Shown here in pieces: positions 305 through 20,226 of a DNA stretch of 36,476 nt. The position numbers and the translations under genes were made by a program. Each line of letters begins with the position of its first letter. The stretch's first letter is position 1. The notes beneath the pieces were generated by a model that made no database searches, was not told the origin of the DNA, and was given only the letters and a program-made list of their open reading frames with translations. This stretch comes from Chloroflexota bacterium (GTDB lineage: Bacteria; Chloroflexota; Dehalococcoidia; Dehalococcoidales; JACPPQ01): positions 1-36,476 of the forward strand of contig JACPPQ010000133.1 of assembly GCA_016190925.1 (NCBI GenBank), given 5' to 3'.

Positions 305-334
305 TTGACAGCCAATTCAAAATTATGTTAGACT
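305..334 (+). promoter_or_regulatory. Putative sigma-70 promoter of the ribosomal superoperon
   Basis: A perfect -35 TTGACA (305-310) is followed after 18 bases by TAGACT (329-334), a 4/6 match to the -10 consensus. Transcription would start near 341 and leave a leader of about 120 bases before rpsL. The sensor-kinase promoter at 32906-32934 has the same ATGTTAGACT-like -10 block, which supports this as a genuine promoter type in this genome. Confidence 0.55.
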
Positions 335-363
335 TGAAAGTTATTGCTTTGAAGCTGAGAATA

Positions 364-393
364 AAGATTTAGCTGAGTTTCTGGCTAAATCTT
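364..393 (+). promoter_or_regulatory. rpsL leader hairpin 1
   Basis: AAGATTTAGC (364-373) and GCTAAATCTT (384-393) form a perfect 10-bp stem with a 10-base loop, just downstream of the predicted transcription start. No T-run follows, so it is not a simple terminator. It lies in tandem with the stronger hairpin at 408-435. A role in control of the ribosomal operon is inference. Confidence 0.6.
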
Positions 394-407
394 CATAGTC
401 ACCGTTA

Positions 408-435
408 GAGTGGATGAGCTTCGGCTCATCCACTC
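408..435 (+). promoter_or_regulatory. rpsL leader hairpin 2 with UUCG tetraloop
   Basis: GAGTGGATGAGC (408-419) pairs perfectly with GCTCATCCACTC (424-435) around TTCG. That gives a 12-bp stem closed by C(UUCG)G, one of the most stable RNA tetraloops. It ends 26 bases before the rpsL start codon and about 11 bases before its ribosome binding region. There is no T-tract. An in-frame ATG at 414 lies inside the stem and is unlikely to be used. Confidence 0.75.
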
Positions 436-461
436 AAATTGTGGGACAGGGAGAAAAGAAA

Positions 462-893
462 TTGCCGACGATTAATCAGTTGGTCCGCAAGGGCCGGGGT
501 AAGCTGACCAAGAGGACCAAGGCGCCAGCTCTGGGTGTCAGCTATAATGCTTTGAAGAATAAGGTGATAAAGGGAGCCGGCTCGCCTCAAAAGCGGGGGG
601 TCTGCACCCAGGTCAGAACGATGACTCCCAAGAAACCGAATTCGGCACTGCGGAAGATAGCCAGGGTGCGCTTGACCAACGGAATAGAGGTAACCGCCTA
701 TATTCCCGGCGAGGGCCATGAGCTACAGGAGCACTCTGTGGTCTTGATTCGCGGTGGCAGGGTGAAAGACCTGCCGGGCGTTCGTTACCACATTATTCGC
801 GGAGCGCTGGATACCAGCGGGGTGGCTAACCGCCGCCAGGGGCGGAGTCGCTACGGAGCCAAACAGCCTAAAGCCGCAGTTGAAGAATCCTGA
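462..893 (+). CDS. rpsL: 30S ribosomal protein S12
   Basis: S12 sits at the decoding centre of the small subunit and is needed for accurate tRNA selection. The product is 143 residues and begins [12 protein letters not shown], the normal S12 start. I therefore chose the TTG at 462, preceded by CAGGGAGA, over the in-frame ATG at 414, which lies within a hairpin. The signature [11 protein letters not shown] is present, as is [10 protein letters not shown]. The lysines equivalent to E. coli K42 and K87 (here K57 and K102) are wild type, so no classical streptomycin-resistance substitution is seen at those two positions. A 14-15 residue insertion before SPQKRGVC gives the long S12 form of Gram-positive-like bacteria. 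It is the first gene of the superoperon. Confidence 0.97.
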
Positions 894-910: not shown

Positions 911-1381
911 ATGCCAAGACGGGCACACATCGATAAAAGAATAGAACCGGTTGATGCGGTCTACCGCAATGAAGTGGTAGGCAAGATAATCAACAGGTTA
1001 ATGAAAAACGGTAAGAAGAGCACCGCCGAACGTGTCATCTATGATGCCTTGAGGATTATCGAGGAGAGAGAGAAAAAGGACCCGGTCAGCGTCCTTGAGC
1101 AGGCGGTAAAGAATGTGGTACCCCTGCTCGAGGTGAAAGCCCGCCGTGTCGGCGGCGCTACGTACCAGGTACCCGTGGAAGTCCGCCAGGACCGCGGCTT
1201 TTCCCTGGGCATACGCTGGATGTTGAAGTCCAGCCAGGCCAGAACAGGCAAGTCCATGGCTGAGAAGTTCGCCGCTGAAATCACCGATGCCGCAAAAGGC
1301 CAGGGAGCGAGCATCAAGAAGCGTGAAGATACTCACAAGATGGCAGAGGCCAACAGAGCCTTTGCCCACTATAGATGGTAA
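911..1381 (+). CDS. rpsG: 30S ribosomal protein S7
   Basis: S7 nucleates assembly of the 3' domain of 16S rRNA and forms part of the head near the E site. The 156-residue product has the usual family length and begins MPRRAHIDKR. It contains KARRVGGATYQVPVEV, the conserved rRNA-binding block, and ends in AFAHYRW. AAGGAG at 897-902 gives an 8-base spacing to ATG. It lies 17 bases after rpsL, as in the classical str operon, where S7 is often the autoregulatory protein. Whether that holds here cannot be seen from sequence. Confidence 0.98.
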   Translation: MPRRAHIDKRIEPVDAVYRNEVVGKIINRLMKNGKKSTAERVIYDALRIIEEREKKDPVSVLEQAVKNVVPLLEVKARRVGGATYQVPVEVRQDRGFSLGIRWMLKSSQARTGKSMAEKFAAEITDAAKGQGASIKKREDTHKMAEANRAFAHYRW

Positions 1382-1422
1382 ATGGGAAGGAATGGCTAAT
1401 AACATAGCTCAAGTGAAGCATT

Positions 1423-3555
1423 ATGGTAATAACTCCGACAACACTTAAGAATAAACCTATGACTACGTCCGAACGTTTCCCCTTAGAGCGTATACGGAAT
1501 ATCGGCATCATCGCCCACATCGATGCTGGCAAGACCACCACCAGCGAGAGGATTCTCTTTTATACCGGCCGCACCTACAAAATTGGAGCGGTGGATGAGG
1601 GAACGGCGGTGCTGGACTGGATGGAGCAGGAGAGGGAGCGTGGTATCACCATTACCTCGGCGGCTACCACCTGCCAGTGGCACAACCACCGTATAAACCT
1701 CATCGATACCCCCGGGCACGTGGATTTCACGGCAGAGGTCGAACGCAGCCTCAGGGTACTGGACGGCGGCGTTGTGGTCCTCGATGCGGTAGCCGGTGTT
1801 GAAGCCCAATCCGAGACGGTGTGGCGGCAGGCTAACCGCTATCATGTGCCGCGGATTTGTTTCGTGAACAAGATGGACCGCGTTGGTGCAGACTATTACA
1901 ATACCATCGCGATGATAGAGAAACGCCTCCAGGCAACGCCCCTGCCGATACAACTGCCGCTGGGCAAAGAAGAAACGTTTCGTGGCGTGATTGATTTGAT
2001 AGAGAACAAAGCCTGGACATTCATTCAAGATGCCCAGTCCCCTTCGGAACCGGTGGAAGTCCCTGTGCCGGAGTCTGACCGGGCGGAGTGTGCCAAATTC
2101 CGTGAGAAGCTGATTGAAAAGCTGGCGGAACTCGACGACCATATTATGGTAGCCTATCTTGAGGGCAAGGAAGTCACCATCTCCGAGCTAAAAGAAGCCT
2201 TGAGAAGGGTGACGCTGGCCAACAAAGGTGTTCCCGTTCTCTGCGGCACTTCTCTGAGAAATAAGGGCGTCCAGCCATTGCTTGATGCCGTCATCGATTA
2301 TCTTCCATCTCCCCAGGATACCCCGCCTGTAGCCGGTATAGACGCACGGTCCGGTGCTCCGGTTACACGTCCAGCCAACGATGATGCCCCCTTTTGCGCC
2401 CTCGCCTTCAAAGCGGTGGCAGACCCGTTCATGGGCAGGCTGGTATATATCAGGGTATATTCCGGTCAGGTAAAGACTGGAACACAGGTGCTCAATTCCA
2501 CCCGGGGCAAGCGTGAACGCATTGGTCGACTGGTATTAATGCATGCCAACCACCGTGAGGACATCACCGGGACAGAAACTGGCGCCATCGTAGCCTGCCT
2601 GGGACTTAAAGACACTTTTACCGGCGATACGCTGTGTAGTTCTGAGCACCCGATTTTACTGGAATCTATCCGTTTCCCCGAACCGGTACTTAGCGTTGCC
2701 ATAGAACCTAAGACCAGGATGGACCAGGACAAGATGTTTGATGGTTTACAGAAGCTTACCGATGAAGACCCCACTTTCAAGGTAGCGCATAACCAGGAAA
2801 CGGGACAGACGATTATATCCGGTATGGGAGAGTTGCACCTGGAAATTCTGGTAGACCGCTTGCTCAGGGAGTTTGGCGTTGGGGCTAAAGTCGGTCCACC
2901 GCAGGTGGCTTACAGAGAGACCATAACCAAGAAGGCGAAGGCGGAAGGTAGATTTGTACGGCAGAGCGGCGGACGCGGCCAGTACGGAGATATCTGGCTT
3001 GAGGTGGAACCTCTGGAGCGTGGCGCCGGCTACCAGTTTGTGGATGAGGTCAAAGGCGGTAACGTGCCCAGAGAGTTTATTGTAGCCGCCGAGGCTGGCA
3101 TCAGGGAAGCGTTGAACGTGGGAGTGCTCGCCGATTATCCTGTGGTTGACATCAAAGTGACCGCTGTGGATGGCAGCTACCATGAGGTCGATTCCTCACA
3201 GATGGCCTTCAAGATGGCTGGTTCGATAGGTCTGAAAGAAGCGGCCCGAAGGGCGGGGCCAGTCCTCCTTGAACCTATTATGCGACTCGAGGTGGTGACC
3301 CCCGGTCAGTTTATGGGCGACATTATAGGCGACCTCAATTCCAGGCGTGGACATATCGAGACCATTGAGACGCAACAGGCTGGAACGTGCATCATCCGTT
3401 GCTTGATACCGCTTTCAGAGACTTTCGGTTATGCTACCACTGTAAGGTCGCTGACTCAGGGCAGGGCAACACACTCCATGGAACCCCATAGCTACCGGCA
3501 AGTGCCCGCCGACGTGGCAAACCAGATAACGGGCAAAACTACGGAGGTTAAATAA
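1423..3555 (+). CDS. fusA: Elongation factor G
   Basis: EF-G is the GTPase that drives tRNA and mRNA translocation on the ribosome. The GTP-binding motifs are in order: AHIDAGKT at residues 31-38, RGITIT at 73-78, DTPGH at 95-99 and NKMD at 149-152. Domains II-V follow, giving 710 residues in full. The first 12 residues resemble no EF-G. An in-frame ATG at 1459 would give [16 protein letters not shown] and a more typical 698 residues. Neither start has a strong Shine-Dalgarno sequence, so the start is uncertain. It follows rpsG as in the str operon, but the next gene is rpsJ, not tuf. Confidence 0.97.
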
Positions 3556-3566
3556 AGGTACTTCAT

Positions 3567-3875
3567 ATGGCTAAGCAGAAGATTCGCATCAAGCTGAAGA
3601 GCTTCGACCACAAGATTCTGGACCTGTCCGCCGAGCAGATTGTGCAGGCAGTGGAACGCACGGGGGCGGTCATCGCCGGCCCGGTGCCTCTGCCGACGCA
3701 CATCGAGAAGTTCAGCATTATCCGCTCCACCTTCATAGATAAGGACTCGCAGGAACAATTTGAGATACGCACCCATAAGCGCCTTATCGACATTGTTGAG
3801 ACCACCTCCAAGACCATCGATGCCCTGACCAAGCTGGAGCTACCCTCCGGGGTGGATATAGATATTAAGCTGTAA
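3567..3875 (+). CDS. rpsJ: 30S ribosomal protein S10
   Basis: S10 is a head protein of the small subunit and, as NusE, a partner of NusB/NusG in transcription antitermination. The 102-residue product starts [19 protein letters not shown] and keeps the family blocks GPVPLPT and [12 protein letters not shown]. It lies 11 bases after fusA; GGAGG sits in the fusA end and AAAGGT lies nearer the ATG. It opens the S10 operon segment, here fused directly to the str segment without tuf between. Confidence 0.98.
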
Positions 3876-3892
3876 GACAGGACGATAATAAC

Positions 3893-4519
3893 ATGATTCA
3901 AGGAATTATCGGCAAGAAACTGGGGATGACCCAGGTATTCAAAGAGAAAAGCGGCGAGGTGGTGGGAGTAACCGCCATCGAAGCTGGCCCGTGCACGGTG
4001 GTACAGCTCAAGACCGCGGATAAAGATGGGTATAACGCTGCCCAGCTCGGCTTCGGACAGGCGAAGAAACTCAACTCGCCTGAGCGCGGGCATCTCAAAG
4101 AGTTGGGGCAGTTCAGGTATCTCCGGGAATTCAGGCTGGATGATGTTCAGGGTGTAGAAACGGGACAGAAGGTGGATGTCAGCATGTTCAAAGCCGGAGA
4201 TTTGATTGACGTTACCGGCACCTCCAAGGGCAAGGGGTTTGCCGGTGTGGTCAAGCGCCATCATTTTGCCGGCGGTTTAAAGACACACGGGCAGTCTGAC
4301 CGTCACCGCGCCCCGGGTGCCATCGGCTCCACAACGTCCCCTGGCCGGGTGTGGAAAGGGACGCGGATGGCCGGCCGCCTGGGTGATGACAGGGTAACTG
4401 TGCGCCGACTGCAAGTTGTGGAGGCATACCCGGAGCGCAACCTGCTTCTGGTTAATGGAGCAGTGCCGGGCGCTGCCAAAGGTCTTCTGTTGATTAAGAA
4501 ATCGGTCGGGGGTAAGTAG
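3893..4519 (+). CDS. rplC: 50S ribosomal protein L3
   Basis: L3 is an early-binding 23S rRNA protein whose long loop reaches the peptidyl transferase centre. The 208-residue protein begins MIQGIIGKKLGMTQVF. It has the diagnostic loop GGLKTHGQSDRHRAPGAIG and then WKGTRMAGRLGDDRVT. Length and order (rpsJ-rplC-rplD) are standard. The ATG is preceded by an AGGA-type binding site 17 bases after rpsJ. Confidence 0.98.
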   Translation: MIQGIIGKKLGMTQVFKEKSGEVVGVTAIEAGPCTVVQLKTADKDGYNAAQLGFGQAKKLNSPERGHLKELGQFRYLREFRLDDVQGVETGQKVDVSMFKAGDLIDVTGTSKGKGFAGVVKRHHFAGGLKTHGQSDRHRAPGAIGSTTSPGRVWKGTRMAGRLGDDRVTVRRLQVVEAYPERNLLLVNGAVPGAAKGLLLIKKSVGGK

Positions 4520-4521
4520 AA

Positions 4522-5178
4522 GTGCAAGTTCCTGTTTACAACCTCGCCGGTGAGGTAGTCAAGAATATCGAGATAGACGAATCCGTTTTCGGCGTTCCTG
4601 CGAATGAATCGGTAGTACACCAGGCGGTACTGCGGCAGCGAGCAAATGCCCGCCATGGAACTGCTGATACCAAGACCAGGGGTGAGGTTGCCGGCAGTAC
4701 CAAAAAGCTCTTCCGACAGAAGGGCACCGGGGAAGCCCGCGCCGGCAGTATGAAGTCGCCACTGCGTAAGGGAGGGGGAACCGTCTTCGGTCCTCATCCG
4801 CGCAGCTACAGACAATCGATGCCAAAGAAGATGCGCCGGTTAGCGCTCAGATGCGCGCTTTCAGCCAAGGCCGGTGATGGTGAGTTGCTGGTGCTCGATC
4901 GCCTTCAACTGGAGAAGCCCAGGACCAGGGATATGGAGCAGATTCTGGGCACACTTGGCGTAGGCTCTACTGCCCTGGTGGTTACTGAGAGTCCGGAAGA
5001 AAACGTGATTATATCAGCCCGCAACCTGCCCGGTGTCTGGACGTTGCCAGCCAGCCTGCTCAACGTGGTCGATATCCTCGGCCACAAACAGCTGCTCATG
5101 ACCGAGGCAGCAGTGCGCAAGGTTGAACAGCTATGGGGACTGGAACCGTCCCAGAGGGAAAACAATGCATCTTTATGA
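4522..5178 (+). CDS. rplD: 50S ribosomal protein L4
   Basis: L4 lines the peptide exit tunnel with a long basic loop. In Enterobacteria it also represses the S10 operon. The 218-residue product starts at GTG 4522, two bases after the rplC stop. It carries the loop region RGEVAGSTKKLFRQKGTG and GGGTVFGPHPRSY, followed by the globular C-terminal part. The last 14 bases overlap rplW, so translation of the two is probably coupled. A slightly extended C-terminus is the only oddity. Confidence 0.97.
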   Translation: MQVPVYNLAGEVVKNIEIDESVFGVPANESVVHQAVLRQRANARHGTADTKTRGEVAGSTKKLFRQKGTGEARAGSMKSPLRKGGGTVFGPHPRSYRQSMPKKMRRLALRCALSAKAGDGELLVLDRLQLEKPRTRDMEQILGTLGVGSTALVVTESPEENVIISARNLPGVWTLPASLLNVVDILGHKQLLMTEAAVRKVEQLWGLEPSQRENNASL

Positions 5179-5449
5179 AGTATTGCGCCGTCCGCTCGTA
5201 ACTGAAAAGAACACCGACCTGCAGGCCCAGGGCAAGTACAGCTTTGAGGTGGCCAGGGGAGCCAATAAGCATCAAATCAAAGAGGCCGTGGAAACCGCAT
5301 TTAGTGTAACGGTACTCTCGGTCAACGTGTTGAACTTGCCGGGGAAAAAGCGCCGGGTCGCCAAAGGGTGGGTAGAAACCTCTCCCACCAAGAAGGCAGT
5401 GGTCACACTGAAACCGGGTGACAGCATACAGTTCTTTGAGGGCGCATAG
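5165..5449 (+). CDS. rplW: 50S ribosomal protein L23
   Basis: L23 lies at the exit of the peptide tunnel and docks trigger factor and SRP. I place the start at ATG 5165, inside the rplD end and just after GAGGG. The 94-residue protein then begins MHLYEVLRRPLVTEKN, matching family start and length. An in-frame upstream ATG at 5123 would add 14 residues with no family resemblance. The block VNVLNLPGKKRR is the usual rRNA-binding loop region. Confidence 0.97.
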   Translation: MHLYEVLRRPLVTEKNTDLQAQGKYSFEVARGANKHQIKEAVETAFSVTVLSVNVLNLPGKKRRVAKGWVETSPTKKAVVTLKPGDSIQFFEGA

Positions 5450-5467
5450 AGCCAAGGAGGAGCCTGA

Positions 5468-6295
5468 GTGGCACTGAAAACATATAAGCCGACCTCTCCC
5501 GGCAGGCGGGGCATGACCGGCGGTACCTTTGAAGAAATAACCAAAAGCAAGCCAGAGAAAGCCCTGCTTGTATCGCTCAAGAAGAACGCCGGGCGCAACA
5601 ATCAAGGCAAGGTAACAGTCCGCCACCGGGGTGGCGGAGCCAAGCGCAAGATACGCATTATCGATTTTAAGCGAGATAAGCTCGGCGTGCCGGGCAGGGT
5701 AGCGGCCATCGAATATGACCCGAACCATTCGGCAAACATCGCGCTGATATTCTATGCCGATGGCGAGAAGCGCTATATTCTTGCGCCGTCCGAACTGCAT
5801 GTGGGAGACACCATCAAGGCAGGAGAGGGCGCCGAAATAAAGGCGGGAAACGCTTTGCCTATGGGGCTGATGCCCAGCGGCACGGTGATTCATAATATAG
5901 AAATGCAGCGGGGCAAGGGCGGGCAGATGGTGCGGAGCGCCGGTGTTTCAGCCCAGCTGATGACCAAGGAGGGCGAATATGTGCTCATTCGTCTGCCCTC
6001 CGGCGAGATGAGGCGAATACGCAGCGAATGTTATGCCACTGTCGGACAGCTTGGAAATGCGGAGCACCGCAGCATCAAGCTGGGTAAGGCAGGTCGCAGC
6101 CGGTGGCTGGGCATACGACCGACGGTGAGGGGCACGGTAATGTCTCCGCGTGACCATCCGCATGGCGGCGGGGAAGGTAAAACCCCGAGAGGGCTACCCG
6201 GCCCCAAGACCAAATGGGGAAAGCCGGCGTTGGGCTATAAAACTCGCAAGAACAAACCTTCGGACAAGCTAATCGTTAAACGTAGAGGAAAGTAG
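5468..6295 (+). CDS. rplB: 50S ribosomal protein L2
   Basis: L2 is needed for subunit association and contacts the peptidyl transferase region. The 275-residue protein starts at GTG 5468 after AAGGAGG (5455-5461). It shows the hallmark C-terminal stretch [17 protein letters not shown], which includes the conserved histidine, and the central [12 protein letters not shown] block. Full length, in standard S10-operon order after rplW. Confidence 0.98.
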
Positions 6296-6300
6296 GCAAC

Positions 6301-6582
6301 ATGTCGAGGTCAACCAAGAAGGGGCCTGCCGTAGACCCCAAGCTGATGAAGAAAGTGGATGCGGTCATCCGCTCCGGCCAGAAAACGGTAATAAAGACCT
6401 GGGCGCGCTGGTCTACAATCATGCCCGAGATGGTGGGGATGACTATCGGAGTGCATGACGGGCGGAGGCACGTGCCTATCTACATCACGGAGAACATGGT
6501 GGGTCACAGGCTGGGAGAGTTTGCCATAACGCGGACCTTCAGAGGTCACGGAGGCAAAGCAGAGAAAGCTCCAGCTGCCTAG
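6301..6582 (+). CDS. rpsS: 30S ribosomal protein S19
   Basis: S19 lies in the head of the small subunit with S13 near the A-site tRNA. The 93-residue product begins [15 protein letters not shown] and contains [20 protein letters not shown] and [13 protein letters not shown], both family blocks. It starts five bases after rplB, so the two are almost certainly co-translated. Confidence 0.98.
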
Positions 6583-6615
6583 TATAGAAAGTTTAAGCAA
6601 CGGATATAAGAATAA

Positions 6616-6957
6616 ATGGAAGTAATGGCAATAGCAAGAAATACCGGTATACCATCTCTCAAAATGCGGCTTTTGGTCGATACTGTGCGGGGCAAGAAAG
6701 TCAGCGATGCATTGGCGATATTGGCTTTCACGCCAACGCCTACGGCCAAGATTCTGGCCAAGGTGATAAAGTCAGCGGCAGCTAATGCGGAGAACAACTA
6801 CCAGATGTACCCGCAGAACTTGAGGATTGTGAAAATCTTTGCTGACGAGGCGCGGACCCTGCGAAGGTTCCGGGCCGGGCCTCGCGGGAGAGCGAAGCCC
6901 ATCCTCAAACGTTCGAGTCATGTTACAGTAGTCGTTGCTGAGCAACAGGAGGCATAA
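6616..6957 (+). CDS. rplV: 50S ribosomal protein L22
   Basis: L22 contributes a beta-hairpin to the narrowest part of the exit tunnel, the site of macrolide-linked mutations. The 113-residue product has GIPSLKMRLLVDTVRGKKV at the N-terminus. The tunnel hairpin block TLRRFRAGPRGRAKPILKRSSH is typical. A second ATG at 6625 (MAIARNTG) is possible, as neither start has a strong ribosome binding site. The stop codon abuts the rpsC start. Confidence 0.96.
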   Translation: MEVMAIARNTGIPSLKMRLLVDTVRGKKVSDALAILAFTPTPTAKILAKVIKSAAANAENNYQMYPQNLRIVKIFADEARTLRRFRAGPRGRAKPILKRSSHVTVVVAEQQEA

Positions 6958-8028
6958 TTGGGGCGCAAGGTTCATCCTACAGGTTTTAGAATCGGTGTGA
7001 TACGTGACTGGCAGGCAAGATGGTACGCAGATAAGCATTATGCGGACTTTTTGCAGGAAGACCTGAAACTCAGGAAGGCCATTCAGGGCAAGTATACCGA
7101 TGCCGGCATCTCCCGGGTGGAGATTGACCGCCAGGCGAACAGGGTGTCAGTTACCATCCACACCGCCCGCCCTGGCATTGTGATTGGGCGGGGAGGACAG
7201 AGGGTCGATGAAATGCGGGGATACCTTGAGGGCCTGATTGGCAAGAAAATTCAGTTGAATATCCAGGAGATTCATCATCCGGAGCTCGATGCTTTCCTGG
7301 TGGCCCGGTCCGTAGCCGACCAGATGGAGCGACGTGTTGCCTACCGCAGGGCGATGAAGCAGGCGATGTTCCGCACCATCCAGGCCGGAGCGAAGGGGGT
7401 AAGAGTCAATTGCGCCGGCAGGCTGGGTGGCGCAGAGATAGCACGCCGCCAGACCATGCATGAAGGAAGAGTTCCCCTGCACACGATACGCGCCGATATT
7501 GACTATGGCTTTACGGAAGCGCGCACTACCATGGGCCGCATCGGGGTGAAAGTCTGGGTTTATAAAGGAGACATTCTGCCTGAGGTGGCAGCGGTTGAGG
7601 AAGTTACCGCACCGGCGGCAGCTGCGGAAGGGGCTCCTATTGAGGCTGCGGCCACAGAAGCTGCGGCTCCGGTTGAAGCCATGCCGGCCGCAACACCCGT
7701 GGCGGAAGCGCCACCAGCCGCAGAGCTTGCCTCTCCGGCAGAAGCGAAGCCGGCTGGGGAACCGGCGGAGGCTGGCGAAGCGTCGCCTGCCGCAGAAACA
7801 AAACCGAAACCAGCAAGAGCGCCGAGGACCAGGAAAGCGAAACCGGAAACAACGGCGGTAACTGCACCTTCCGAGGAGCCAGAAGCGAAAGCTGCTGAAC
7901 CAGCGCCATCCGCAGAAGCAGAAGCGAAGCCTGCAAGAGCGCCGAGAAGCAGGAAAGTGAAAAAGGAAGTGGAACCGGAAGCTTCCATGGAGCCGGCGCC
8001 AGAGGAGGGCGACAATGCTGCAACCTAA
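6958..8028 (+). CDS. rpsC: 30S ribosomal protein S3 with long low-complexity C-terminal tail
   Basis: S3 forms part of the mRNA entry pore and helicase of the ribosome. The start is TTG 6958, directly after the rplV stop, giving [18 protein letters not shown]. The KH domain shows [16 protein letters not shown] (residues 72-87) and the C-terminal domain has [11 protein letters not shown]. The conserved core ends near residue 209 (YKGDILPE). Beyond it lies a tail of about 147 residues made almost only of Ala, Pro, Glu and Lys, which raises the total to 356 residues against roughly 210-235 in most bacteria. Two near-identical basic blocks, [12 protein letters not shown] (284-295) and [12 protein letters not shown] (324-335), punctuate it. 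The frame stays open into rplP, so the tail is not a frameshift artefact of the normal stop. Confidence 0.97.
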
Positions 8029-8461
8029 GCGGGTAAAGTTCCGCAAGGTGCATAAGGGACGCCGCGAGGGCTCAGCCCATTCGGGGACAGCCGTTGCCTT
8101 CGGAGATTTCGGTCTCCAGGCGCAGGAGTGTGCCTGGCTGACCAATCGCCAGATTGAAGCGGCACGGCGCGCCATGACCCGCTATATCCGCCGCGGTGGA
8201 AAAGTATGGATACGGATTTTTCCAGACAAACCGGTGACCAAAAAACCGGCGGAGACCCGCATGGGTGGAGGCAAAGGTACTCCGGACCATTGGGTGGCGG
8301 TGGTCAAGCCGGGGAGAATAATATTCGAGATGGCTGGTATTGATGAAAAGGTGGCCAAAGAGGCCATGCGGCTTGCGGCTCACAAGCTTCCGATAGAGAC
8401 CAGGTTCGTCGCCCGGGAAACTTCAATCATTGCCGGCAGTGAATCTGTAGCAGGGAGTTGA
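8015..8461 (+). CDS. rplP: 50S ribosomal protein L16
   Basis: L16 organises the A-site and 5S rRNA region of the large subunit. The 148-residue protein starts [16 protein letters not shown] and keeps WVRIFP-like [20 protein letters not shown] and the C-terminal PIETRFVAR block. GAGGAGG (8002-8008) within the rpsC tail serves the ATG at 8015, overlapping rpsC by 14 bases. That overlap shows that ribosomes must translate through the S3 tail to couple the two genes. Confidence 0.98.
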
Positions 8462-8467
8462 TGAAAG

Positions 8468-8665
8468 TTGAAAATTGAGGAGATAAGGAATCTCGATATC
8501 GCGGAACTATCGAAGCAGCTTGAGGCCGCCCATCGTGAGCAATTCGACCTCCGTTTCAAGTTGTCCACCAGGCAACTGGTCAACCACCGCGAGCTCCCGC
8601 GGGTCAAGAAGGAAATTGCCAGGCTGAAGACCATAATACGCGAGAAAGAACTTGGTGTAAGGTAG
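8468..8665 (+). CDS. rpmC: 50S ribosomal protein L29
   Basis: L29 is a small two-helix protein at the tunnel exit beside L23. The 65-residue product starts at TTG 8468 with AGGGAG at 8452-8457. It has the pattern [27 protein letters not shown] followed by [17 protein letters not shown], as in the family. It sits six bases after rplP in standard order. Confidence 0.96.
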
Positions 8666-8675
8666 GCGTCACTTA

Positions 8676-8957
8676 ATGGAGAAGAATCGCAAAATCATGA
8701 TTGGCAAGGTGGTCAGCAACAACATGCAAAAAACCGTGGTGGTCACTGTGGTGAAACCACACCGCCATCCCCTGTATAAAAAGACCCTCAAGAAAACAAC
8801 CAGGTATAAAGTCCATGATGAAAAAAACCAGTGCAGCATCGGGGACATGGTAAAGATTATCGAGTCCCGGCCCCTCTCAAAAGAAAAACGCTGGCGGGTA
8901 GCCGAGATAGTGAAGAAGGGCCAGGTGGTAGAGGTTAAACCGGAGGAAGTAGCCTAA
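8676..8957 (+). CDS. rpsQ: 30S ribosomal protein S17
   Basis: S17 is a primary 16S rRNA binder with an OB fold in the 5' domain. The 93-residue product has [18 protein letters not shown] near the N-terminus and [21 protein letters not shown] near the C-terminus, both diagnostic. AAGGTAGG precedes the ATG. It ends the S10-type segment and leads into the spc-type genes. Confidence 0.97.
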
Positions 8958-8980
8958 ATCAAACTTTGGGGTAGAATATC

Positions 8981-9346
8981 ATGATTCAGTCTTTTACCAG
9001 ACTTAAGGCAGCGGATAACACGGGAGCCCGTCAGATAATGTGCATCGGCGTCCTGACGGGCAGGAGAAGGTACGCCTATTGCGGCGATGTTATTACGGCT
9101 ACGGTCAAAAAAGCCATTCCCGGAGGGATGGTGAAGAAGGGGGAAGTGGTCAGAGCGGTAGTGGTCCGCACCACTTTCCAGCAGCGGCGGCCTGACGGTT
9201 CCTATATCAAATTCGATGATAATGCGGCAGTGATTCTGTCCGAAAAGAACAACCCTAAGGGCACCCGAATATTTGGACCGGTGGCAAGGGAGCTGAGAGA
9301 GAAGGAATTTACCAAAATAGTATCCCTTGCACCCGAAGTATTGTGA
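8981..9346 (+). CDS. rplN: 50S ribosomal protein L14
   Basis: L14 lies at the subunit interface and forms bridges with 16S rRNA; RsfS binds it during silencing. The 121-residue product begins [22 protein letters not shown]. It contains [29 protein letters not shown], as expected, and has normal length. First gene of the spc segment. Confidence 0.98.
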
Positions 9347-9352
9347 GTGGTT

Positions 9353-9664
9353 ATGAAAATCAGAAAGAATGATAACGTACTGGTTATAGCTGGCAAGGAT
9401 AGGGGTAAGAAGGGCAAGGTGCGATTCTCATACCCCGATAAGCAGCGTGTTATTGTCGAGGGCGTCAACTTCATCAAGAGGCACATAAGGGCGGTGGGGC
9501 AAGTGAGGCAGGCCGGCATCGTCGAGAGAGAGGCTCCGCTCAGTGTGTCCAATGTGATGCTCCTGTGCAGCAAGTGCAACCACCCTGCTCGCATCGGCTT
9601 CCGCATCCTGCAGGATGGGAGGAGGGTGCGCGTCTGCCGCGCCTGCGGAGAGGTGATTGATTAG
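9353..9664 (+). CDS. rplX: 50S ribosomal protein L24, zinc-ribbon form
   Basis: L24 initiates large-subunit assembly. I use ATG 9353, which gives MKIRKNDNVLVIAGKDRGKKG, the usual start with its KOW motif. A GTG at 9347, directly after the rplN stop, would add two residues. The 103-residue protein ends with paired CxxC motifs, C72/C75 and C95/C98, a zinc-ribbon tail found in many bacterial L24 proteins. The reading frame ends exactly at the base before rplE. Confidence 0.95.
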   Translation: MKIRKNDNVLVIAGKDRGKKGKVRFSYPDKQRVIVEGVNFIKRHIRAVGQVRQAGIVEREAPLSVSNVMLLCSKCNHPARIGFRILQDGRRVRVCRACGEVID

Positions 9665-10216
9665 ATGTCTAGCTTAAAGGAAAAGTACCAGAAAGAGGTT
9701 GTCCCGGCTCTCACGGAGCGCTATGGATATGGCAATGTAATGCAGGTCCCCACCCTGGAAAAGGTGGTGCTCAACATCGGAATGGGAGAGGCTATTGCGA
9801 ACGCCAAATCGCTGGAAGCAGCAGAGGGTGATTTAACCACCATAACCGGACAGCACCCCATAATTACCCGCTCCAAGAGGTCCATAGCGGCCTTCAAATT
9901 GAGGGCGGGAATGCCCATCGGGATAAAGGTGACGCTGCGGGGAAAGCGCATGTATGCCTTTGTCGATAAGCTGATTAACGCCGTCCTGCCCCGCGTGCGC
10001 GAGTTTCAAGGTGTTTCCCGTGACGCCTTCGATGGCAGAGGGAACTATACCCTGGGCGTTAAGGAGCAGATAATTTTCCCTGAAATAGAGTATGACAAGG
10101 TGGATAAGGTACGGGGACTGGAAATTATCATAGTTACATCGGCAAAAACGGATGAGGAAGGCAGAAGCCTGCTTGAGATGTTAGGCATGCCTTTCGCAGC
10201 CGCTGAGGGTAAGTAA
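9665..10216 (+). CDS. rplE: 50S ribosomal protein L5
   Basis: L5 binds 5S rRNA in the central protuberance and touches P-site tRNA. The 183-residue protein has [10 protein letters not shown], the block [18 protein letters not shown] and [17 protein letters not shown], in family order. The ATG lies immediately after the rplX stop, with GGAGAGG upstream. Normal length. Confidence 0.98.
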
Positions 10217-10218
10217 AA

Positions 10219-10404
10219 ATGGCAAAAATTTCAATGATTGTGAAGTCGCAGCGCCCACCGAAATTCAGGGTGCAACAGCATAATCGGTGTCGTCAGTGCG
10301 GCCGGCCTCGGGGTTATATCCGCAGGTTCGGCCTGTGCCGAATTTGCTTTCGCCGGCTGGCGCTTGCAGGACAACTTCCTGGTGTAAGAAAGTCTAGCTG
10401 GTAG
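10219..10404 (+). CDS. rpsN: 30S ribosomal protein S14, zinc-binding short form
   Basis: S14 assembles into the head of the small subunit. The 61-residue protein is the short C+ (type Z) form, with zinc ligands C24, C27, C40 and C43 (CRQC and CRIC) and the end GVRKSSW. It starts two bases after the rplE stop. No long zinc-free S14 is seen in the window. Confidence 0.97.
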
Positions 10405-10439
10405 ACTGCCAGCGTGCAGAATGAGACGAGGGGGTAAAG

Positions 10440-10838
10440 GTGACTGTCTCAGATCCAATTGCGGATATGCTAACACGGATACGCAATGCCATTATGGTGA
10501 GGCATGATTCTGTATTGATTCCGGCTTCGAAATCGAAGATGTCCATCGCCAAAATCCTCAAGACAGAGGGATTCATTTCAGATTATGAGGTGCTCAACGA
10601 GAAGCCGGGGCGAGTGCTAAAGATTCGTTTGAAATACGATGAGCAAAATCAGCCAATCATCTCGGGGCTGGAGCGTATCAGCAAACCGGGGCTAAGGATA
10701 TATTCCCGGCATAACGAGGTGCCGCGTGTTTACGGCGGCCTGGGAATAGCCATACTCTCCACCTCCAAAGGAGTGATGACCGGCCATCAGGCCTGGCGTC
10801 AGAGCATCGGCGGCGAAATCCTGTGCTACGTATGGTGA
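10440..10838 (+). CDS. rpsH: 30S ribosomal protein S8
   Basis: S8 is a primary 16S rRNA binder and, in E. coli, the repressor of the spc operon. The product is 132 residues, starting at GTG 10440 ([18 protein letters not shown]) after a G-rich ribosome binding site. The C-terminal [20 protein letters not shown] is diagnostic. The following 82-base gap to rplF, the largest within the spc segment, carries a hairpin (10853-10901). Confidence 0.97.
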
Positions 10839-10852
10839 ATCCCGTAAAAAGA

Positions 10853-10901
10853 AGCTACCAGCCGTCAGCCTCCAGACATGGGGGTGGAGGGACTGATAGC
10901 T
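10853..10901 (+). promoter_or_regulatory. Hairpin between rpsH and rplF
   Basis: Three helices stack: AGCTA (10853-10857) with TAGCT (10897-10901), TCAG (10865-10868) with CTGA (10893-10896), and CCTCCA (10869-10874) with TGGAGG (10885-10890). They are separated by a 7-base internal bulge on one side and a 2-base bulge on the other. This irregular stem resembles a protein-binding RNA more than a terminator, and no T-run follows. A link to S8 feedback is only a guess. Confidence 0.45.
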
Positions 10902-10920
10902 AATACTCAGGAGATTATGG

Positions 10921-11466
10921 ATGTCTAGAATAGGGCGGATGCCAATAACAGTACCAACAGGCGTGAAGGTGGACATCGGTCAGGGGGGGGTGACAGTTAA
11001 AGGCCCCAAGGGAGAGCTACATCGTAGTTTCGACCCCAGCATGTCCATTGCCTTAAAAGAGAATACTTTGATAGTGTCACGTCCCAGCGATGCGAGGGAG
11101 CACCGCTGCCTGCACGGGTTGACGCGCAGCCTGCTGGCAAACATGGTGCAGGGCGTGTCCCAGGGTTTCGAGAAGAACCTGGAAATCGTGGGAGTAGGCT
11201 ACCGGGCGGAAAAAGCCGGGGAAAAGCTGGTGCTCCGTGTCGGCCTTTCCCATACGCTGGAAGTTGCGCCGCCAAAAGGCGTGTCTTTTGCTGTGGAAGG
11301 CGTTAACAAGATTAAAGTTATCGGGATTGACAAGGAGGCGGTGGGAGAAACAGCAGCAAACCTGCGTGAGATGCGACCCCCTGATACGTACAAAGGTAAA
11401 GGTATCAGGTATCTCGGTGAGAAAGTCCGAATCAAACCAGGGAAGGCTATAGGTAAGAAGAAATAA
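10921..11466 (+). CDS. rplF: 50S ribosomal protein L6
   Basis: L6 lies near the GTPase-associated centre. The 181-residue protein begins [15 protein letters not shown] and ends with [23 protein letters not shown], the C-terminal family signature. AGGAG (10909-10913) precedes the ATG. The last base of its stop codon is the first base of the rplR ATG (TAATG), indicating stop-start coupling. Confidence 0.98.
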
Positions 11467-11831
11467 TGGCAAAAGTTGAAACAAGAGAAGCACGCATCAG
11501 GAGACATGCCAGGGTCCGGCTCAATCTAAAGGGCACGACGGAAAGACCGCGTTTGTCCGTATTCCGCAGTCTGAATCATGTTTACGCCCAGGTTATTGAT
11601 GACATCCAGGGGCAAACTCTTGCGTCAGCATCGACTCTCGACCCGGAAATAAAGGGCGAGACGGCGGGTAAAACAAAGACTGACGAGGCCAAGCTCGTTG
11701 GGTCTCTGGTTGCCAAGCGGGCGCTGAGCAAGGGCATAAGCCAGGTAGTATTCGACCGCGGCGGGTTCCAGTATCACGGCAGGGTCCAAGCCGTGGCGGA
11801 TGCAGCCCGCGAGGCAGGATTGAAGTTCTAA
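11466..11831 (+). CDS. rplR: 50S ribosomal protein L18
   Basis: L18 binds 5S rRNA and carries it into the large subunit. The 121-residue product has [23 protein letters not shown] and ends [27 protein letters not shown], both typical. Its ATG overlaps the rplF stop by one base. Normal length and position. Confidence 0.98.
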
Positions 11832-11849
11832 GGAGGTTGGCTTAGGCAA

Positions 11850-12383
11850 GTGAAGGCGCCGATTAGTAAGATAGACCCAACAGAACTAACACTGAACGAT
11901 AAGCTGGTATACATTAACCGTGTCGCTAAGGTGGTTAAGGGCGGCAAGCGCCTCAGCTTCAGCGCCCTGGTAGTGACCGGTGATGGTGCCGGACATGTGG
12001 GCGTTGGCCTGGGCAAGTCCAACGAGGTGCCCGGAGCTATCAGTAAGGCCGGAGCGGATGCGAAAAAGAACCTTGTCAAGGTGCCCATGGTTAATGCTAC
12101 CATTCCCCATGAGATTACCGTTAAATACCGGGCTGCCGAAGTGTTTCTGAAGCCGGCGGCGCCTGGCACGGGAGTCATTGCCGGCAGTAGCGCCCGAGCT
12201 GTTCTTGAAGCGGCTGGCATAAGGGACATCCTGAGCAAGTCCAAGGGCAGCGAAAACCGGACTAACGTGGCTAGAGCCACGATTCTTGCCCTGAGCCAGC
12301 TAAGAATGCCCAAAGAAGTAATCGCCAAGCGCAAAGGTATTGTTAAAACTGAAAAGACCGAGGAGTCAGCGACCGGTGGCTAA
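11850..12383 (+). CDS. rpsE: 30S ribosomal protein S5
   Basis: S5 helps line the mRNA entry channel and affects decoding fidelity. The 177-residue protein starts at GTG 11850, with AGGAGG at 11831-11836. It contains [35 protein letters not shown] and the C-terminal [13 protein letters not shown] block. The extra residues at the end ([12 protein letters not shown]) are poorly conserved, and rpmD starts inside the last codons. Confidence 0.97.
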
Positions 12384-12558
12384 GTTACGTGTTATCCTTG
12401 TTAAGAGCGGTATTGGGTATGCTGAAGACCAGAAGAGGACACTGAAGGCTCTGGGACTACGGCGAATGAACCAGAGTGTAGTCCATGAGGATTCACCTTC
12501 ACTGCGAGGCATGGTCAGCAAAGTGAGACATCTGGTAAAAGTGGAGGAAAGCTCGTGA
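12376..12558 (+). CDS. rpmD: 50S ribosomal protein L30
   Basis: L30 is a small large-subunit protein near 5S rRNA. I place the start at GTG 12376, giving [15 protein letters not shown] and 60 residues, the normal size. GAGGAG at 12359-12364 serves it. An upstream in-frame ATG at 12340 would add 12 unrelated residues inside rpsE. It overlaps rpsE by 8 bases and rplO by 4. Confidence 0.95.
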
Positions 12559-13022
12559 GAGAGGACACAATTTCCCCGCCTCCCGGCTCTAACAAGAACC
12601 GGAAGCGGGTCGGACGAGGAAACGGCAGCGGACATGGCAACTATTCAGGGTACGGTTGTAAAGGCGAGAAGCAACGCGCCGGACGAGGCCATATGCGCCC
12701 GGGTTTTGAGGGCGGGCAGTTGCCATTAATAAAGCGCCTTCCGCACACGCATGGCTTCACTAATAAATTCAGACAGGAGTATAACGTTATTAATCTGGGC
12801 CAGCTGAACGTCTTCGAATCCGGCGCCGAGGTAACACTGGAAGCCCTGGCGAAAGCCGGGCTTGTAAAGTCGCTGCGCCTGCCGGTCAAAATACTGGCTG
12901 ATGGTGAACTGAAGCATCCTCTTACCATACTAGCAAACAAATTCTCTTCTGCTGCTAAAGCCAAGATTGAGGCAGCCGGTGGCAAAGTGGAGGAGGTTGA
13001 GTATGCGGCAAAGGCAGTCTAG
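12555..13022 (+). CDS. rplO: 50S ribosomal protein L15
   Basis: L15 is a late-assembly protein of the large subunit. The 155-residue product starts at GTG 12555, overlapping the rpmD stop in a GTGA junction. It shows the glycine-rich N-terminal region [34 protein letters not shown] and the C-terminal globular domain. Its last 20 bases overlap secY. Confidence 0.97.
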
Positions 13023-14319
13023 GCCGCGACTACTTCAGGCGATGTTCGATGCCTTCAGTCTGCCTGACCTGAGGCAACGTATCCTTATCACCATCGCTAT
13101 CCTGGCGATTTTCCGTTTCATAGCGCATGTGCCGCTTCCCGGAGTGGACCTCGATGCTTTGCAGCAACTTTTCGAGCGGAACGCCATGCTGGGCATGCTC
13201 GATATGTTCAGCGGCGGCGCCATGAGGCGACTCAGCGTTGCGGCTATGGGGGTTTATCCCTATATCACCGCCTCTATCATCATGCAACTAATGGTGCCGG
13301 TCATACCCAGGTTGCAGGCGCTTGCCCTTGAGGGAGAGGCCGGACGGGACAAGATGAACCGTATTACTCACTGGGCAACGGTGCCCCTCGGCGGCTTGCA
13401 GGCCTACGGCCAACTGGTATTTTTCCAGAATCAGGGCATTTTCACCGCCCCTACCCCTCTGCTAATGGCAACCATGGTGCTGTCAATGATAGCGGGTACC
13501 ATGTTCACCATCTGGCTGGGTGAGCGTATTTCCGAGTATGGCATCGGGAACGGCATATCGATAATAATCTTCGGCGGCATTGTGGCGGGTTTACCTGAGC
13601 TGATAGGGGAAGGGTTTCTTGCCAGGGCAAATCCCCTCGGTCTTTTCTTTTATATTTTCATTGCGGTGGCTACGGTGGTGTTGATTGTGGTCTTCACCGA
13701 AGCCCACCGGAGAATCCCGGTGCAATATTCCCGCAGCGTTATCCGCGGCAACCGCATGTACAAGCAACAGGGGGCCACCCACATTCCGTTGCGGGTGAAT
13801 ACCGCAGGCATGATACCCCTTATCTTTTCCATGTCGCTGGTGCTCTTTCCCAGCATAGTCGCCAGCTACTTTGCAGCGCCTCAGGGCGCCGACCCGAATT
13901 TTGCCAACCAGATTATGACACTGTTTGACCCCAATGCGCGGATACCCCTGGGCCTGTTCTACTGGGGATTGTTTTTCCTCCTGACGGTTGCCTTTGCCTT
14001 CTTTTACACCATGGTAGTATTCCAGCAGCAGGACCTTCCTGGCGCTCTGCAAAAACAGGGAGGGTTCATCCCTGGAATCCGGCCGGGTAAAGCTACCAAA
14101 GACTTCCTCGATGGCGTTATCAGGCGCATCACCTGGGCGGGGGCTATTTTCCTGGGACTGGTGGGTATTATGCCTTTCATAGCCAGAGAAGCTACCGGCA
14201 TCCAGGTCATCCAGCTATCCAGCCTGGGTTTGATTATCGTGGTTGGCGTGGTGCTGGACACCATGAAGCAACTCGAGGCACAGCTGGTGATGCGCCGGTA
14301 CGAGGGCTTTATAAAGTAG
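13003..14319 (+). CDS. secY: Preprotein translocase subunit SecY
   Basis: SecY is the channel of the Sec translocon in the cytoplasmic membrane. The 438-residue product has about ten hydrophobic segments. It carries the family stretches VPLPGVD, the plug region SGGAMRRLSVAAMGVYPYITASIIMQL in the first third, and RGNRMYKQQGATHIPLRVNTAGMIP in the cytosolic loop. GGAGGAGG just upstream supports ATG 13003. An in-frame start at 12967 would add 12 residues with no hydrophobic or family character. It sits between rplO and adk, as in most bacteria. Confidence 0.97.
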   Translation: MRQRQSRPRLLQAMFDAFSLPDLRQRILITIAILAIFRFIAHVPLPGVDLDALQQLFERNAMLGMLDMFSGGAMRRLSVAAMGVYPYITASIIMQLMVPVIPRLQALALEGEAGRDKMNRITHWATVPLGGLQAYGQLVFFQNQGIFTAPTPLLMATMVLSMIAGTMFTIWLGERISEYGIGNGISIIIFGGIVAGLPELIGEGFLARANPLGLFFYIFIAVATVVLIVVFTEAHRRIPVQYSRSVIRGNRMYKQQGATHIPLRVNTAGMIPLIFSMSLVLFPSIVASYFAAPQGADPNFANQIMTLFDPNARIPLGLFYWGLFFLLTVAFAFFYTMVVFQQQDLPGALQKQGGFIPGIRPGKATKDFLDGVIRRITWAGAIFLGLVGIMPFIAREATGIQVIQLSSLGLIIVVGVVLDTMKQLEAQLVMRRYEGFIK

Positions 14320-14326
14320 GAGAGAG

Positions 14327-14983
14327 GTGTATATTATCTTCCTGGGTGCTCCCGGAGCAGGAAAAGGCACGCAAGCCGCAAACGTGGCAAAAAAGAGGGG
14401 ACTGACCCATATTGCTACCGGCGACCTTTTCCGGCAGGCACAGGAGCAGAAGACCGAGCTGGGGCTTAAAGCCAGGTCATACATGGAAAAGGGACAGCTT
14501 GTCCCTGATGAAATTACAATAAAGATGGTTGTGGAAAGGCTATCGGCGACGGATTGCCGCTCCGGAGCGATTTTCGACGGCTTTCCGCGGAACCTGGAAC
14601 AGGCAAAGGCGCTGGACAAGGCGCTGGCTGCCCAGGGCAAGGCGGTCGACAAGGTAATATATATCAAAGTTTCTGAAGAGGAGCTGGTGAAGAGGCTCAG
14701 CGGGCGCTGGATTTGCCGCAATTGCCAGACTCCCTATCACGAGGTGAGTTCACCTCCCAGGGTCAAGGGAAAGTGTGACAAGTGCGGCGGCGAGCTGTAC
14801 CAGCGCTCTGATGATACAATCGATACAGTCAAGCAGCGCTTGAAGGTGTATTTCAGCCAGACAGTCCCTCTCATCGACTACTATAGCCGGGCGGGGAAAT
14901 TGATAGAAGTAGATGGTGAGGGAGCCGTGGATAAGATTAGTGGGAGGATAGTTTCAGCTATCGGTGGCGAGAAGGGCCGGTAA
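14327..14983 (+). CDS. adk: Adenylate kinase, zinc-LID form
   Basis: Adk interconverts ATP + AMP and 2 ADP in the cytosol. The 218-residue protein starts at GTG 14327 after AGGAGAGAG. It has the P-loop GAPGAGKGT (7-15), the AMP-binding DGFPRN (84-89) and a LID domain with four cysteines, C130/C133 and C150/C153, so it is the zinc-binding long form. It lies seven bases after secY, the usual place. Confidence 0.97.
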   Translation: MYIIFLGAPGAGKGTQAANVAKKRGLTHIATGDLFRQAQEQKTELGLKARSYMEKGQLVPDEITIKMVVERLSATDCRSGAIFDGFPRNLEQAKALDKALAAQGKAVDKVIYIKVSEEELVKRLSGRWICRNCQTPYHEVSSPPRVKGKCDKCGGELYQRSDDTIDTVKQRLKVYFSQTVPLIDYYSRAGKLIEVDGEGAVDKISGRIVSAIGGEKGR

Positions 14984-14990
14984 CCAGCAG

Positions 14991-15755
14991 ATGGGCATAG
15001 TGATTAAATCTGAACGGGAGCTCGAAGCTATGCGGCAGGCTGGAAGGGTAGTGGCGACCGTTCTTGAGATACTGGAAAAACACGTAAAACCGGGCGTGAA
15101 GACAAAAGAGCTGGATGAAATTGCAGCCCGGGAGCTTGAAAAGCTAGGGGGAAAGTCTTCGTTCAAGGGATACCGTGGATATCCCGCTAGTTTGTGTGTA
15201 TCAGTTAATGACCAGATAGTACATGGGATTCCGGGGGAGCGGGTTTTGAAGGAGGGTGATATAGTATCACTCGATTTTGGAGCAATTGTGAACGGGTTTC
15301 AGGGTGATTCCGCGGTAACAGTAGGCGTGGGCAAAATCAGCCCGGAGGCAAAGCGCCTGATAGAGACTGCGGAGGGTGCCCTGTACGCCGGTATTGCCGC
15401 CGCCCGCGCCAAAAATAGGCTGGGGGATATCTCTGCCGCCATCCAGCAATATGCCGAGTCAAGGAGATTTTCAGTTGTGCGTGAGTATACCGGGCATGGC
15501 ATCGGCAGGGAGATGCATGAAGACCCCCTGATTCCAAACGTTGGCGAACCCGGCACCGGGCCGGCGCTGCGGAAGGGCATGACGCTGGCTCTTGAACCAA
15601 TGGTGAACGCCGGTGGCTGGCGCACCAGGGTTGGCAATGATAAGTGGACAGTGTATACTCTCGATGGGAGCAACTCGGCGCACTTCGAACATACTATTGC
15701 CGTCACCGGCGGTGAAGCAGAGGTGCTCACCAACAGAGCGCAGGGCCATGGCTAA
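14991..15755 (+). CDS. map: Methionine aminopeptidase, type I
   Basis: This enzyme removes the initiator methionine from nascent proteins. All five metal ligands are visible when counted from ATG 14991: D95, D106, H169, E202 and E233, within [36 protein letters not shown] and HFEHT. Length is 254 residues. The ATG gives [18 protein letters not shown], close to the family start. A GTG at 14964 inside adk would add nine residues. It has no N-terminal zinc finger. Order adk-map-infA is standard. Confidence 0.96.
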
Positions 15756-15966
15756 GAAAGAGGTTATCGAGGTTGAAGGGACGGTAACGGAATCTTTGCC
15801 CAATGCCATGTTTCGGGTGGAACTGGCAAACGGGCATCCGGTGCTGGCGCACATTTCCGGCAAGATGCGGATACACTATATCAAGATATTGCCCGGTGAC
15901 AAGGTGCTGGTACAACTTTCGCCTTATGACCTCAGTCGTGGTAGAATAACCTATAGACTCAAATAA
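15748..15966 (+). CDS. infA: Translation initiation factor IF-1
   Basis: IF-1 blocks the A site during initiation. The start is ATG 15748, overlapping map by 8 bases, giving 72 residues beginning [22 protein letters not shown]. The OB-fold motifs [19 protein letters not shown] and [13 protein letters not shown] are complete. A longer in-frame extension upstream to 15613 lies within map and is not part of the gene. Confidence 0.97.
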
Positions 15967-15981
15967 GAAGGGTTTACTATA

Positions 15982-16095
15982 ATGAAAGTCAGAGCTTCGG
16001 TCAAAACAAGGTGCGAAAAGTGCAAGATAGTCAAGCGCAAGGGCGTAGTCAGGGTCATTTGTTCTAACCCGAAGCACAAGCAGAGACAGGGTTAG
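15982..16095 (+). CDS. rpmJ: 50S ribosomal protein L36, zinc form
   Basis: This 37-residue gene lies between infA and rpsM. The product reads [20 protein letters not shown] and onward, ending in KHKQRQG. The zinc ligands C11, C14, C27 and H32 are all present, so this is the C+ form of L36. GAAGGG (15967-15972) provides the binding site. Size, motif and position all match rpmJ. Confidence 0.96.
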
Positions 16096-16121
16096 GTGTT
16101 CTACAAACAGGGAGGAGTGCA

Positions 16122-16508
16122 ATGGCGCGTATAGCCGGGGTAGACATACCAAGAAATAAGCAGGTGTGGGTCTCACTGCAATATATTTATGGTATCGGTC
16201 CCACTTTGGCCAAGAAGGTGCTGGCTGAGACCAGCATCGAACCCGAAATCAAGGTGAGCGACCTTACGGATGCGCAGGTCAACACCCTGAGGGAAGCCGT
16301 AGCCAAATATGAGGTCGAAGGTGAGCTGAGAAAAGAAATCAATCTCAATATCAAGCGACTCATCGAGATTGGCAGCCGGCGCGGCCAGAGGCATCGCCGC
16401 AGCCTTCCGGTCAGAGGGCAGCGTTCCAGGACAAACGCTCGCACCAAGCGCGGACAACGTAAGACAGTGGCCGGAAGAGGCCAGAAGCGCGGCACGGCCA
16501 AGAAGTAA
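16122..16508 (+). CDS. rpsM: 30S ribosomal protein S13
   Basis: S13 sits in the head and bridges to the large subunit. The 128-residue product begins [26 protein letters not shown]. It contains [26 protein letters not shown], where the common RHRRGLPVRGQRT carries a Ser. GGGAGGAG precedes the ATG. It opens the alpha-operon segment (rpsM-rpsK-rpsD-rpoA-rplQ). Confidence 0.98.
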
Positions 16509-16537
16509 AGTCCCCTAACAGGATTTGAAGGAGTAGC

Positions 16538-16918
16538 ATGGCACAGAAAAAGCGAAGGAAAGAACGGAAGTCTATCCCATCGGGGAGAGCCTATATACAG
16601 TCTACTTTTAATAACACTGTAGTGACTCTCACCGACCCTCAGGGAAATGTTATTTCCTGGGGAAGCTCAGGGACAGCCGGATTCAAGGGCTCCCGCAAGG
16701 GGACCCCCTATGCCGCCCAATTGGCCGCCCGCGATGCTGCGCGGAAGGCAATGGAGCAGGGACTGCGGCAGATAGAGGTCTACGTAAAGGGACCCGGCAG
16801 CGGACGCGAAGCCGCCATCCGTTCCCTTCAAAGCTCGGGGCTTTATATTACCGGTATCAAGGACGTGACACCCATTCCTCATAATGGCTGCCGTCCATCC
16901 AAGAGAAGAAGGGTGTAA
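16538..16918 (+). CDS. rpsK: 30S ribosomal protein S11
   Basis: S11 lines the platform near the E site and the Shine-Dalgarno helix. The 126-residue protein carries [41 protein letters not shown] and [23 protein letters not shown], which are highly conserved. GAAGGAG sits before the ATG. Normal length. Confidence 0.98.
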
Positions 16919-16928
16919 GGATAGAGAA

Positions 16929-17555: not shown

Positions 17556-17574
17556 CGCGTTAGGAGGCAGGACA

Positions 17575-19743: not shown

Positions 19744-19747
19744 TGTA

Positions 19748-20191: not shown

Positions 20192-20226
20192 AAAAACAAA
20201 AATACGTTCCTTGAGGGGAAAAATAA

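Follow-up and report, generated by a model that had tools for sequence, protein, structure and literature searches.

The ribosomal-protein gene rpsL of a Chloroflexota bacterium (assembly GCA_016190925.1) is preceded, at the head of a long superoperon, by a structured 5′ leader with two tandem hairpins, P1 and P2; the leader is conserved among members of a single order within the Dehalococcoidia, most likely the Dehalococcoidales. It lies on contig JACPPQ010000133.1, positions 1 to 36,476 of which, counted in nucleotides (nt), constitute the window analysed here, and had been singled out as an undescribed structured rpsL leader in an original prediction made from the sequence alone. This is borne out by the relatives, which carry the element at the same place in 137 of 141 leaders, and by the lack of any Rfam match or of a published description in the papers searched. 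The leader is consistently placed upstream of ribosomal-protein genes and in this respect qualifies as a ribosomal-protein leader (r-leader), for which such placement, together with covariation, is the yardstick given in the available text of Eckert & Weinberg (2020; PMC7247131).

In the source genome, both predicted perfect stems are present at the positions listed in Table 1, as is the promoter-like element ahead of them. Since a promoter-like TTGACA-18-TAGACT arrangement precedes the leader, its transcript probably starts near position 341. The region 305–470 folds with a minimum free energy of −52.8 kcal/mol, compared with −36.0 (standard deviation 3.9) for 200 dinucleotide shuffles (z −4.35), none of which was as low. 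No terminator-like site was found on the plus strand within positions 1–1500, and in agreement with the prediction neither P1 nor P2 is followed by a T-run. Model R1, with a training set of 34 leaders, matches the source leader at 333–444 with 64.3 bits; the leader itself has one match within that genome, where the exact P2 pattern also occurs once. A dispersed repeat, which the prediction had named together with relatives devoid of stems as grounds for abandoning it, was therefore rejected: the leader is single-copy in its genome and is conserved among its relatives.

The order was sampled with 156 genomes, among which the source genome is the sole representative of its family. The rpsL gene was found in 149 of these and 144 loci were fetched. 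G025, G044, G045, G076 and G100 were set aside because their genes were truncated or hardly any sequence preceded them, and for G071 the second place was used as the rpsL locus; the start motif of rpsL was identified in 141 loci, to which the leader counts refer. The exact P2 pattern was detected in 103 of the 156 genomes, at one site each apart from two in one genome, and a reversed control pattern gave no matches in the same 156. A relaxed pattern located P2 upstream of rpsL in 137 of the 141 leaders. It failed in L218, L221, L222 and L223; the element of L223 was detected farther upstream by R1, which also found it in L131, L219 and L225, the loci in which no start motif was identified. Overall, R1 detected 125 of the 144 loci at E ≤ 0.01 (90 of 100 and 35 of 44), a count that includes the 34 leaders of its training set, and missed the most divergent leaders.

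The consensus of P2 is GGAUGRGC-NNNN-GCUCAUCC, followed by AAAUUGU, with 11 pairs aligned across the order. In 127 distinct P2 entries the GG, AUG and AG elements and their partners are nearly invariant, the loop varies and the tail reads N-AAA-UUGU-G, while the sequence of P1 varies between species. The near-invariance of the P2 stem letters points to sequence-specific recognition. The UUCG cap highlighted in the prediction is present in the source leader but is particular to it, being found in one of the 93 four-base loops listed, 66 of which are of the YNNG type. The surroundings of P2 are also regular: TTGAC occurs in the searched stretch of 138 of the 141 leaders, typically about 106 nt 5′ of P2, the start codon follows the end of the inner P2 arm by 27–33 nt in 112 of 137 leaders and a Shine–Dalgarno-like string lies at most 18 nt from the start in all 137.

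The changes tolerated by P2 indicate that it functions as RNA. A one-sided transition in a base pair yields either G·U or A·C, and in a DNA dyad both outcomes would be expected. In pairs 1–7 one-sided transitions produced G·U in 41 alignment cells and A·C in one, next to two transversion mismatches and five double changes that restore Watson–Crick pairing, and for all eight core pairs 47 G·U and six mismatches from one-sided transitions, 13 transversion mismatches and two mismatching double changes were counted, cells that are not independent events because related genomes inherit changes. The ratio of 41 to 1 is therefore attributed to selection on RNA pairing and not on a DNA palindrome. In a structure-blind MAFFT alignment (A1) of 34 leaders chosen for alignability out of the 137, RNAalifold recovers exactly the P1 and P2 helices and 91.7% of cells pair, compared with 25–45% when the structure is slid. 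Double changes occur at 13 of 22 pairs of A1 (mean of 7.1 in column shuffles, none of 500 reaching the observed score), comprising all 11 pairs of P1 and two of the 11 pairs of P2. Independently of any alignment, the region 5′ of P2 has a mean folding z of −1.98 over 80 non-redundant leaders, with 41 of these below −2, and the pairing probability of the P2 core exceeds 0.9 in 116 of 137 leaders. The covariation check on related genomes suggested by the original prediction thus had a divided outcome: the G·U asymmetry of P2 and the double changes throughout P1 agree with it, but a tree-aware one-set test gave at most one significant pair.

On balance, the structure and placement of the leader make it probable that it acts in cis as a ribosomal-protein leader through which the operon is repressed by feedback. 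The prediction had suggested that the superoperon could be regulated by the leader; the structure and the placement that it invoked are supported, and the regulation is what they would suggest. In this mechanism, an abundant RNA-binding protein would recognize the P2 stem together with the AAAUUGU tail. The reader would most likely be a ribosomal protein encoded within the same operon, because this is the precedent set by the r-leaders covered in the available text of PMC7247131, and by analogy S7, S4, L4 and S8 are candidate ligands. When in excess over ribosomal RNA (rRNA), the protein would cover the 5′ border of the 30S landing site and repress rpsL, and this repression would spread to the tightly packed downstream genes through translational coupling. 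The probable role of P1 is to space or insulate P2 when the latter leaves the polymerase.

Several observations weigh against feedback repression. No rRNA mimic was found, although r-leaders frequently, if not always, resemble the rRNA site of their ligand, the best P2 arm pair in six rRNA sequences matching at 12–13 of 16 positions, the same as in shuffles; a single-strand match of GGATGAGC in the 23S rRNA of two genomes was rejected as mimicry, since both arms jointly are at the level of chance. The fold leaves the Shine–Dalgarno region unhidden, with a median unpaired probability of 0.44, and the leader alone therefore does not explain repression. The rpsL leaders of G111 (L218), G112 (L221) and G155 (L222) appear to be without a recognizable P2. 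Finally, the tree-aware null, a custom script implementing a simplified version of the R-scape idea, returned no significant pair in the one-set test on A1, and in a structure-blind alignment of 117 leaders it gave a weak result, with one of 22 pairs significant in the one-set and two of 22 in the two-set test. The one-set pair is the outer pair of P2, which flips between U-A and A-U (E = 0.017), and one pair likewise passes the one-set test in an alignment of 89 leaders fitted to the structure with a covariance model. There is little classical covariation to draw on, P2 being nearly constant and P1 difficult to align; the P1 structure is weakly supported by the tree-aware test. In G111 and G112 other hairpins occupy the place of P2, and the leader has perhaps been replaced in these genomes.

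Among the alternatives, the one that retains some weight, although it is considered unlikely, is that P2 and its tail have a structural or processing role and set, without feedback, the stability of the operon mRNA or the efficiency of initiation, for example as a site of RNase cleavage or protection or as a hairpin that insulates or serves 30S standby. The steady distance of P2, which borders the ribosome footprint on its 5′ side, and its high stability, as reflected in the core pairing probabilities, would suit such a role; however, a purely structural hairpin should drift as P1 does, whereas the stem letters of P2 hardly change across the order. It is less probable still that P2 recruits an elongation or antitermination factor for the 20-kilobase operon, in the manner of LoaP and the dfn hairpin, which the UNCG-like loop of a leader hairpin before a very long operon brings to mind (PMC12691694, available text). 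Exactly one NusG-family gene is present in each of 15 order genomes, so that a dedicated paralogue is lacking, and the leader has no terminator; a LoaP-type antiterminator is unlikely here, and a possible variant has housekeeping NusG, NusA/NusB/S10 or another factor as the reader of P2. There is little to recommend a transcription attenuator that switches between terminator and antiterminator folds, the type known from published rpsL leaders, given that no T-run follows either stem and that five consecutive T occur within 18 nt 3′ of the P2 arm in just six of 137 leaders. A DNA operator, in which a dimeric transcription factor binds the perfect dyad, was rejected as highly improbable: the conserved half-sites around a variable 4-base-pair centre look operator-like, but the changes are one-sided and G·U-tolerated, while the arms of a DNA dyad should behave alike. 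The notion that translation begins within P2, at the AUG inside GGAUGAGC, as a start codon or as the head of a small reading frame, can be practically discarded: in the source genome an in-frame ATG at 414 reads into rpsL, but across the order the phase of this AUG to rpsL is random (44, 46 and 47 of 137), the frame being both in phase and open in only 16 of 137 leaders.

The distribution of the leader ends, as far as it was sampled, at the order. Under strict filters, R1 matched 30 of 393 genomes of the class, all of them within the same order. Over 80 named rpsL loci it gave sense-strand matches in L002, L006 and L007, which were taken as order genomes already counted and not as extra evidence, and none in the other 77. 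The P2 pattern occurs anywhere in 34 of 381 sampled phylum genomes outside the order (42 of 400, minus eight of 19 inside it), but these occurrences were rejected as members and ascribed to scattered chance, none of seven examined sites having rpsL within 200 nt. Other Chloroflexota (loci L276–L287, and also L009, L010, L020 and L035) possess a different conserved hairpin, composed of GAGGCCATC, a loop of 8–16 nt and GATGGYCTC, then often ATTTCTTG. Of the 400 phylum genomes sampled, 37 contain the GAGGCCATC..GATGGYCTC hairpin, and in 11 of the 12 loci fetched it is situated 46–77 nt ahead of rpsL. This hairpin of sister Chloroflexota is a candidate second leader class, unrelated to P2.

Downstream of the leader, 37 consecutive plus-strand genes extend from rpsL to rpsI (Table 1), and all of them match NCBIfam models of the expected proteins, which confirms the predicted position of the leader at the head of a 37-gene superoperon. 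Across the order, TTG is the commonest start codon of rpsL (77 of 137), followed by ATG (35) and GTG (25). The widest gap noticed within the operon, 82 nt between rpsH and rplF (10839–10920), contains a long imperfect hairpin (z −2.71, four of 200 shuffles being as low). The S3 protein (6958–8028) has 356 residues, of which the family model spans 1–207; the remainder is a low-complexity tail rich in Ala, Pro, Glu and Lys.

Table 1. Features of the rpsL leader and of the operon that follows it, in window positions.
Feature	Position	Strand	Remarks
Promoter-like element	305-334	+	TTGACA 305-310, 18-nt spacer, TAGACT 329-334; 10 of 12 matches
5′ leader RNA of the rpsL superoperon, about 121 nt	341-461	+	Probable start near 341, placed from the promoter
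P1 hairpin	364-393	+	Perfect 10-base-pair stem 364-373/384-393, plus an 11th pair, U·G 374/383
P2 hairpin	408-435	+	Perfect 12-base-pair stem 408-419/424-435, C(UUCG)G cap, loop 420-423
Conserved tail 3′ of P2	436-443	+	AAATTGTG in the source genome; consensus N-AAA-TTGT-G
Shine–Dalgarno region GGGAGA	449-454	+	Read from the sequence
rpsL (S12), first operon gene	462-893	+	TTG start; TIGR00981, 217.5 bits
36 further genes: rpsG, fusA, S10, spc and alpha clusters, rplM, rpsI	911-20622	+	NCBIfam matches

The control of the str, S10, spc and alpha operons has been well worked out mainly in Escherichia coli and Bacillus. Here, one conserved element stands ahead of all of the str–S10–spc–alpha genes, in an order that probably includes Dehalococcoides-like dechlorinators, and the P2 stem offers a direct route to a protein that may read it. 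A more far-reaching proposal, which can only be put forward tentatively, is that the leader exemplifies a new class of r-leaders: one protein would read the base pairs of a near-invariant stem, not an imitation of the site that it binds in rRNA, and would so provide a single switch for 37 genes, the unrelated hairpin of the sister lineages being put to the same use. Were this the case, a single switch would set the output of most ribosomal proteins, EF-G, SecY and the RNA polymerase alpha subunit, and the phylum Chloroflexota would represent a natural experiment in which a master switch for the ribosome was invented more than once.

The Rfam search called for by the original prediction gave no family at the gathering score for the leader and six weak unrelated matches at E values of up to 10; the match to SorY (E = 0.0044) was taken as chance, with 24 bits against a cut-off of 111. 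The rpsL leaders described by Naville and Gautheret are presumably those that Rfam names rpsL_ricks and rpsL_psuedo. The view that no described rpsL leader family has this shape also held in literature searches, which covered main texts of mostly open-access papers and returned no published description, and a word search of the texts of PMC7247131, PMC6429828 and PMC2864571 revealed no comparable leader from Dehalococcoides or at rpsL.

Among known systems, the leader resembles the r-leaders of Eckert & Weinberg (2020; PMC7247131) in being a structured, lineage-specific 5′ leader with a consistent place before ribosomal-protein genes, and in the available text of that work the same ligand is often served by different structures in different lineages; that text, supplements aside, has no rpsL/uS12 or Chloroflexi entry, and no rRNA mimic was found in the source leader. 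With the rpsL leaders of Naville & Gautheret (2010; PMC2965389), as portrayed in the accessible part of the article, it shares the gene, the place and a multiform character between lineages, but those are transcription attenuators with T-runs from other phyla, whereas the source leader has neither a terminator nor an Rfam match. The control of the E. coli str operon by S7 (PMC10931766, available text) acts at the head of the same operon and illustrates how one protein can shut off a coupled operon; there the site lies between rpsL and rpsG, while here that gap measures 17 nt (894–910) and the element is 5′ of rpsL. The nearest mechanistic look-alike is the dfn hairpin recognized by LoaP (PMC12691694, available text), which is small, precedes a long operon and has a UNCG-type loop, to which the UUCG of the source leader corresponds. 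The present case differs in that 15 order genomes have no NusG paralogue, the leader has no terminator and the loop sequence is not conserved. With no match in Rfam and no description in the papers searched, the leader would appear to be an addition to the ribosomal-protein leaders, a kind of regulatory RNA that is already known.
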